Assembly: GCA_015065505.1 (NCBI GenBank)
Contig: SVQE01000013.1
Span: forward strand, 1-45,939
Source of the DNA: Oscillospiraceae bacterium
GTDB taxonomy: Bacteria; Bacillota; Clostridia; Oscillospirales; Acutalibacteraceae
Reading direction: 5' to 3'
DNA length: 45,939 bases
The notes under the pieces were generated by a model. The model worked only from the letters and a program-made list of their open reading frames with translations, did not search any database and was not told the DNA's origin. Of the stretch, positions 43,638 to 44,860 are shown one piece after another (position 1 is the first letter of the stretch; each line of letters starts with the position of its first letter). The position numbers and the translations under genes are program-made.

Positions 43638-43665
43638 GTCGTGGTTCGTGGTGAGTGATTCGAAG

Positions 43666-43719
43666 CCTCACACCTTCCCCTTGAGGGGAAGGGGGACCGC
43701 TTGCGGTGGATGAGGTGTG
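43666..43719. repeat. CCTTCCCCTTGAGGGGAAGG palindromic element
   Basis: CCTTCCCC-TTGA-GGGGAAGG is nested in CCTCA...TGAGG, with ACCGC-TTGCGGT between. I recall this element as a common dispersed repeat in gut clostridial genomes (established only from memory). Not coding. Confidence 0.55.
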
Positions 43720-44100: not shown

Positions 44101-44129
44101 TTGACTTGTAAAATAATTAATGCTAAAAT
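44101..44129 (+). promoter_or_regulatory. promoter of the 44.14-kb structured RNA
   Basis: TTGACT (44101-44106), a 17-base spacer and TAAAAT (44124-44129), with a TGC extended -10. The expected start (44136) falls exactly on the first base of the 16-bp closing stem of the RNA downstream. Confidence 0.7.
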
Positions 44130-44135
44130 GTAAGT

Positions 44136-44300
44136 GCCAAACAAAATTTCATATGAATAATTCCACAAATTGAGCGCATTTTTATTGATAAAAATGCGAG
44201 CTCTTATTTTGCGTTCTCTTGTGGAATCGTGAAATTTTGTTTGGCGACAGTTGAGCTATGCGTTTTTTGTGCGCGGCTTCGGCTGCGCACTTTTTATTTT
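44136..44300 (+). ncRNA. candidate structured RNA (sRNA or leader attenuator), class unknown
   Basis: Read as RNA: closing stem P1 of 16 perfect bp, GCCAAACAAAATTTCA (44136-44151) with TGAAATTTTGTTTGGC (44230-44245). P2 of 9 bp is ATTCCACAA (44160-44168) with TTGTGGAAT (44219-44227). P3 of 10 bp is CGCATTTTTA (44175-44184) with TAAAAATGCG (44189-44198), extended by GAG/CTC. A linker GACAGTTGAGCTATGCG follows, then a UUCG-capped terminator (GTGCGC-GGC, 44269-44290) followed by TTTTTATTTTT. A strong promoter sits right before P1. The terminator ends just before the ribosome site of the 44312 gene, so it could be a stand-alone sRNA or a regulatory leader. It does not match a riboswitch class I know; a 6S-like shape is possible. 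Folding is by eye. Confidence 0.6.
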
Positions 44301-44311
44301 TGGGGATAATA

Positions 44312-44860
44312 ATGAAAGATTATAACGAAGGAATGTCAAATTTTGAAAAGGCGGTTGAATTATCCTGCACAAACTGGGTTAACGAAATTGAGAAAGAAAT
44401 GATAAATCGCACTGCGTTTTTATGCGGAAGAATTGATGAAAAATATCTGAAGCAAATTGATATAACTAAGTTAATTAATATCATTAAAAGCATTGTTGAA
44501 GAAAACAATATATTCAGAATATATCACTGTAAAAGAACTGCTTTTGATGTTAAAATATGCGATATTATCGGCTATTTAAGATTTGATAACATAGAAATAA
44601 TTGAGCTAAGTGATATTCATAAAAAAGATACCGAATACAGAGTTAAACAGCCAAAAGGTGTATACAAAATCTTTTGCCCATTTAAAGAAGAAATTGATGA
44701 TTCAGTACTCTATAAAACATTATATAACTACGCTATGGATAACAGTGATATCTTAATTGCATATTCAAAATACGATGATGACATTTCACAGCAGATAATT
44801 GAAAAAGCAAAAGAAAAAGGCAAAAAGATAATTAATATTGCAAAACTATATAATAGTTAA
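44312..44860 (+). CDS. hypothetical protein, possible SLOG-like C-terminal domain
   Basis: A 182-residue cytosolic protein starting MKDYNEGMSNFEKAVELS. I do not recognise the family. The N-terminal half is helical and charged, with Cys in LSCTNWVNEIEKE. The C-terminal part DSVLYKTLYNYAMDNSDILIAYSKYDDDISQQIIEKAKEKGKKIINIAKLYNS resembles the end of SLOG/DUF1273-type nucleotide-binding folds (NSDILIAY ... AKEKGKKIINI), but the Gly-rich loop is not evident. The frame is open from 44258, but that part lies in the RNA terminator; ATG 44312 with GGGGAT (44302-44307) is preferred. It is AT-richer than its neighbours and lies in a repeat-rich zone. Confidence 0.68.
   Translation: MKDYNEGMSNFEKAVELSCTNWVNEIEKEMINRTAFLCGRIDEKYLKQIDITKLINIIKSIVEENNIFRIYHCKRTAFDVKICDIIGYLRFDNIEIIELSDIHKKDTEYRVKQPKGVYKIFCPFKEEIDDSVLYKTLYNYAMDNSDILIAYSKYDDDISQQIIEKAKEKGKKIINIAKLYNS

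Follow-up and report, generated by a model that had tools for sequence, protein, structure and literature searches.

In attenuator leaders of the intrinsic-terminator type, which include riboswitches, T-boxes and leaders bound by proteins, a structured 5' leader is followed by a terminator directly before the ribosome site, and several copies may occur per genome. The leaders of LoaP antitermination are likewise 5' leaders of operons in Clostridia that lie ahead of a terminator, and the type III toxin-antitoxin RNAs (ToxI) are arranged as promoter, RNA (sometimes in tandem), terminator and gene. The HK022 put RNA and the EAR RNA of Bacillus are structured, lie just behind a promoter and could act on termination from outside the terminator sequence. 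Here, we describe an element at positions 44101-44311 of contig SVQE01000013.1 from an Oscillospiraceae bacterium (assembly GCA_015065505.1), which has the above features in common with each of these systems. The whole 45,939-nucleotide (nt) stretch that was analyzed is referred to as the window.

This element belongs to a repeated family of cis-acting leader RNAs in the class Clostridia that appears not to have been described before. We put the probability at roughly three in four that the family consists of attenuator leaders locked to their promoters, with four helices (P1-P4), a switch formed by two segments termed X and Z, and read-through into the downstream gene that is changed by a signal. 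This is a new family of a known kind, the attenuator leader, and its unusual traits are the locked start and a switch helix that does not overlap the terminator. It differs from the intrinsic-terminator attenuators in that no coevolving antiterminator/terminator pairing was found and in that the promoter is locked to the first base pair. The put RNA is about 70 nt long and has two stem-loops (PMC9378689), whereas the RNA of this family appears to be about 160 nt long including the terminator, with one long arm on a closing stem, and occurs in Clostridia. Unlike ToxI, the RNA precedes diverse genes (PIN7 domains in 2 of 75 proteins), and its repeats, as judged by eye, are whole promoter-to-terminator units.

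Architecture of the element

In the window copy, a promoter, P1 from the predicted transcription start (+1), nested helices, a UUCG-capped terminator, a ribosome site and a gene follow each other on the plus strand. A -35 box TTGACT (44101-44106) and a -10 box TAAAAT (44124-44129) were read from the sequence; they are separated by a 17-nt spacer and predict a +1 at about 44136. From this base, the closing stem P1 is formed by 16 perfect pairs between 44136-44151 (GCCAAACAAAATTTCA) and 44230-44245 (TGAAATTTTGTTTGGC). The joint J1/2 (44152-44159), with a conserved AAT(A) of which AAT is nearly invariant in the alignment A1 described below, leads into P2, where 44160-44168 (ATTCCACAA) forms 9 pairs with 44219-44227 in letters that vary among copies. 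The strands of P3 (44172-44178 and 44210-44218) are assigned from sequence and covariation, and the first of them overlaps the U-rich 5' strand of the hairpin P4 (44176-44184), which can pair with 44189-44197. Segment X (44190-44203, AAAAATGCGAGCTC) comprises the P4 3' strand and the bulge, and it is the alternative partner of segment Z in the tail (44253-44267, GAGCTATGCGTTTTT). The intrinsic terminator (44269-44295) has a stem of 9 base pairs (bp; 44269-44277/44282-44290), a TTCG loop and a run of five T. It is followed by the ribosome site GGGG (44302-44305), also read from the sequence, and by a gene for 182 amino acids (aa) that starts with ATG at 44312 (44312-44860).

The RNAfold energy of 44101-44311 was -65.9 kcal/mol (z = -4.98), and none of 200 shuffled sequences folded equally well. 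An earlier note on this DNA had described a near-consensus promoter that sets +1 at the first base of a 16-bp perfect stem, and a 9-bp UUCG terminator directly before the ribosome site of the gene at 44312, and the sequence agrees with both. The inner helix of that description is P4, whose 5' strand partly coincides with that of P3. The length, estimated as about 165 nt, was corrected to about 160 nt (44136-44295).

Covariation of the helices

From copies with promoter and tail, 41 were extracted, aligned (alignment A1) and used to build a covariance model, R1, that holds P1, P3 and P4 only. The consensus letters of R1 include X and Z, and the X-Z pairing is absent from its structure. Helix P2 was seen in single-sequence folds of 18 copies; it is outside both the model and the covariation count.

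Alignment A2 was built from 114 matches in the genus and the order, of which 111 rows were distinct. Paired cells made up 95.0% of this alignment, as compared to 83.4% in shuffles, a control that is inflated by related sequences, and to 37-56% when the partners were slid; the values for individual helices were 91.4% in P3 and 95.0% in P4. Changes on both sides were observed at 20 of 25 pairs, comprising 8/8 in P1, 9/9 in P3 and 3/8 in P4, where the U-A core hardly varies among the copies. In P1, the whole stem is rewritten from copy to copy, such as GCCAAACA/UGUUUGGC in one and GCGACACA/UGUGUCGC in another. When the register that paired best was taken, positions 1-12 of P1 were paired in 121-131 of 131 copies, with many compensatory types. 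The result was repeated in alignment A6, which holds 42 copies from 40 loci in other orders of the class and was outside model building. Here, 95.9% of the cells were paired (100% in P1), with changes on both sides at 19 of 25 pairs.

Fixed promoter and terminator

The start at the closing stem is a trait of the family. A promoter at the right register was identified in 125 of 128 distinct copies and in 40 of the 42 copies from other orders. Among the 125, the spacer was 17 nt in 100, and in 116 the -10 box ended 2 nt upstream of the aligned core. Riboswitch leaders vary in their distance to the promoter, and for them it is unusual that transcription starts at a fixed first base pair. A terminator-like hairpin just past the tail was observed in 123 of 127 copies with enough sequence, as compared to 4 of 645 shuffled stretches.

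Alternative pairing of X with Z

Segment X covaries with the tail segment Z. Among the 165 of 170 copies that could be parsed, the variable triplet of X was fully paired with Z in 155, as compared to 65 with the P4 5' strand, and a test of cognate versus swapped pairing gave p = 6e-16. In the window copy, the duplex of 44190-44203 with 44253-44267 has a predicted energy of -15.3 kcal/mol. Judged from these sequences, Z can pair with X either as a pseudoknot or through strand exchange. The X-Z helix adjoins the terminator, and no sequence shared between the two was found.

The same recipe that detects X-Z was applied to other possible partners of the RNA in 168 of the 170 copies; it detects coevolving pairings only. 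No coevolution was observed for the terminator arm (p = 0.79), the U-tract (p = 0.82) or the ribosome-site region (p = 0.30; p = 0.62 against the tail). A base-paired antiterminator or anti-Shine-Dalgarno sequence thus finds no support, and the RNA would probably influence termination only indirectly, by way of the polymerase or of a factor that is bound. An upstream open reading frame beginning at a start codon in the tail was also rejected: AUG is present in Z in 67 of 128 copies and shares the frame of the gene in 15 of 37, close to the one third expected by chance, in a test confined to the frame of the AUG in the tail.

Distribution in Clostridia

A blastn search with the 211-base query gave five matches in the window's own genome, including two short and partial ones, and detected the element in 33 of 60 related genomes. 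With R1, 62 of 80 genus genomes gave matches, up to 32 in a single genome (G096), as did 89 of 295 genomes of the order, representing 55 of 148 genera. The draw from the class gave 57 of 245 genomes and 37 of 158 genera, and two of the 57 belong to the window's own order. The own genome is counted in all of these numbers. In the draw from the phylum, which included a few genomes of the class without a match, the only match among 249 genomes was the window's own genome, and this draw also serves as a specificity control for R1. An exact tail pattern was found in seven titled contigs of metagenome-assembled genomes under the names Eubacterium sp., Clostridia bacterium and Candidatus Eubacterium faecigallinarum, the last of which is classified in the class Clostridia; four of the seven titles mention rumen or gut sites. 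A phage or plasmid origin found no match: one blastn query with the window copy gave none in phage or plasmid records, and four exact patterns gave none in viral contigs.

The copies fetched for analysis were the higher-scoring among the matches listed and not a random sample, which favors well-preserved copies. One set numbered 131 copies, or 128 once identical cores were removed; 124 of the 131 rows were parsed in one step, and 126 of the 128 in the analysis of the X-Z duplex and protein export. From G096, 27 distinct copies were in hand of the 32 matches. At least seven fetched copies of this genome (L087-L106) precede similar proteins of 77-93 aa, and several others have a strong ribosome site without a reading frame, as seen by eye. 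None of the four proteins scanned had a Pfam match, and the label DUF6809 for the 91-aa proteins of G096 was consequently wrong.

Other observations concern single loci. Four tandem copies at L065:2952-3895 and two at L059:3032-3398 lie directly before genes for PIN7-domain proteins, an arrangement that recalls the layout of type III toxin-antitoxin systems. A longer copy with an extra insert at L004:1514-1695 on the minus strand (contig C87 of genome G000) faces the neighboring gene and has, by eye, a poor terminator; it is an orphan or is decaying. A GC-rich stretch (GCCTCACACCTTCCCCTTGAGG...) was seen by eye both at 43665-43717 of the window and at about 2158-2210 of L002, as a dispersed repeat on two contigs of the same genome. 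A Gut-1 RNA (RF01706, 68.7 bits) at L002:1910-1982 on the minus strand is located near a family copy, also in this genome.

Genes downstream of the RNA

A start codon with a ribosome site was identified 40-66 nt past the tail in 71 of 128 copies, as compared to 102 of 2000 places picked at random from these loci. Overall, a gene was found behind 84 of the 128 copies and behind 31 of the 42 copies in other orders, with a detector that overlooks some real genes, for example at L061. The layout of promoter, structured RNA, intrinsic terminator and gene is that of a terminator-type attenuator. There would be no room for a second promoter, so that the gene would depend on read-through or on transcription from upstream.

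The 182-aa protein of the window has no family match in Pfam or NCBIfam, and no relatives were confirmed in viral contigs. Its gene family is present in 5 of the 80 genus genomes, including the window's own, and the RNA lies directly upstream in all five. The other four proteins are 36-67% identical to the window protein, which has an N-terminal extension relative to them in the alignment. When the window copy was compared to that of L040, the cores were 91% identical and the downstream sequences 56%, which is about background. Cores more alike than their surroundings suggest cassette movement or gene conversion between genes.

Of 106 distinct downstream frames, 75 were retained by the filter for the Pfam scan, and 25 of 62 families were tabulated. 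The most frequent matches were LRR_5 (12), LRR_8 (8) and fn3 (8), followed by zinc ribbons, among them Zn_Ribbon_1 (4), M23 peptidases (3), dockerin (3), DUF6809 (3), PIN7 (2) and CHAP (2), with SLH, choline-binding and other domains also represented. By a crude rule for N-terminal hydrophobicity, 38 of 62 downstream proteins of at least 100 aa looked exported or membrane-anchored, as compared to 90 of 327 other frames from these same loci (Fisher p = 6e-7). The genes behind the RNA thus appear to lean to exported and cell-envelope proteins, although the N-terminus of the window's own 182-aa protein is not of the exported type by the same rule. In a scan for defense systems with PADLOC, 6 of the 75 proteins matched KwaA (best 1.7e-6) and five other models matched one protein each (best PDC-S02, 7.9e-16); a defense system was not favored as a reading.

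Comparison with known RNA classes

The window gave no match above the gathering threshold in Rfam 15, and the only matches in 10 loci with copies were a tRNA and a cobalamin riboswitch, neither of which lies at the element. Below the threshold, the window region matched tmRNA (14.7 bits against a cut-off of 47, E = 0.00073 in 601 bases), MIR5267 and snR63. The similarity to tmRNA was dismissed as a single sub-threshold match in the window, since in eight other loci no match overlapped the element at E<=0.1. A LoaP leader is disfavored because LoaP exceeded the cut-off in 1 of 80 genus genomes, whereas the RNA is present in 62 of 80. At E<=0.001, the LoaP model matched in 70 of 80 genus genomes and likewise in 13 of 14 control genomes, the pattern to be expected of general NusG. 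Literature searches returned no description of this RNA; supplementary lists, such as that of 3161 candidates belonging to PMC8040213, lay outside these searches and may hold it anonymously.

Discussion

Comparison among copies shows P1, P3 and P4, a fixed promoter register, the terminator, the pairing of X with Z and a link to the gene behind the RNA. On this basis, transcription would begin from a sigma-A-type promoter at the first pair of P1, and the RNA would fold into P1-P2-P3-P4 with a conserved asymmetric bulge. The tail segment Z would pair with X, and the terminator and the ribosome site of the gene would come next. Many transcripts would end at the terminator. A signal, which could be a protein, a small molecule or the state of the polymerase, would shift the RNA between the X-Z and P4 states, and this shift would change read-through into the gene. 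The RNA would probably need no classical antiterminator and would instead act by way of RNA polymerase or of a factor that is bound, much as put does or as in antitermination that depends on a protein.

Most proposals of the earlier note survive this comparison. A new structured RNA is supported by strong covariation in P1 and P3, repeated in other orders, and by the lack of an Rfam gathering match. The alternative pairing of 44190-44203 with 44253-44267 is present as described and covaries, the promoter start is locked to the closing stem, and the position before the gene suits an attenuator, with gene starts clustered behind the terminator. None of the three observations that the note named as refuting was made, and the sub-threshold tmRNA match came closest to one.

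Several results weigh against an attenuator leader as set out here. Five of eight P4 pairs showed no change on both sides in A2, the shuffle controls are inflated by relatedness, and one measure of X-Z (further pair types in A6) was equalled by 71 of 500 shuffles. R1 had no match in 18 of the 80 genus genomes, and 8 of these are among the 51 best assemblies. In the swap test, no coevolution with the RNA was seen for the terminator or for the ribosome site, and the export test rests on a crude rule. Of the 128 copies, 28 have no detected gene, 13 lie in tandem before another copy and 3 are at a contig end, which means that not every copy is a simple leader; no gene was detected behind 11 of the 42 copies in other orders.

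These geneless and tandem copies would be expected of a trans-acting small RNA, as would a complete transcription unit with a fixed promoter register and terminator, the downstream genes then being incidental or using leaky read-through. We regard this as improbable, since the 71 gene starts at 40-66 nt past the tail are taken as too near for a separate promoter and since one gene family keeps the RNA in all five genus members, down to 36% identity. Multiple copies, partly in tandem, with a core more alike than its flanks (91% versus 56% downstream between the window and L040) might also point to P1 as a terminal inverted repeat, belonging to an untranscribed miniature inverted-repeat transposable element or other repeat. 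Such an origin is contradicted by the compensatory changes that several orders show in P1, in P3 and in part of P4, by the fixed places of promoter and terminator and by the retained gene linkage, and no match was found in the phage, plasmid and viral searches; we consider it very improbable indeed, and the structured RNA proposed in the earlier note is upheld against it.

Two of the alternatives are sub-hypotheses of the attenuator leader and concern how it would act. As a polymerase-modifying antitermination RNA in the manner of HK022 put or Bacillus EAR, it would fold immediately behind the promoter, dock on the polymerase and allow the enzyme past the terminator, the X-Z helix serving to turn this on or off. 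The register locked to P1 fits this idea, as does a terminator that does not coevolve, which is expected if the polymerase is the target; the size and fold are unlike those of the put RNA (PMC9378689), and the arguments are indirect, leaving this mode of action possible but doubtful. Similarly tentative is a metabolite riboswitch with an envelope-related ligand, for example a cyclic dinucleotide. It would account for the 5'-leader position, the terminator, the conserved core and the many exported and envelope proteins downstream, but no coevolving expression platform was found. Cyclic di-GMP is disfavored as the general ligand, because four genomes rich in copies, G014 (12 matches), G015 (8), G068 (7) and G099 (5), have no GGDEF match in assemblies that are 90-100% complete; it may serve individual species, and the window's own genome has 13 GGDEF matches, with some present in 23 of the 80 genus genomes. 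More speculatively still, and in our judgment unlikely as a whole, promoter-locked RNA cassettes exchanged across the chromosomes of Clostridia could control an envelope or surface regulon, with the polymerase itself passing or stopping at any terminator behind the RNA and a 14-bp X-Z strand-exchange helix as the switch.

To our knowledge, leader RNAs that are repeated up to dozens of times per genome and across many families of a class are uncommon. As an attenuator leader, the RNA offers a test case for the control of termination without a classical antiterminator, with a switch helix that adjoins the terminator and does not overlap it. By means of this RNA, these Clostridia may control their surface and exported proteins jointly at the RNA level.
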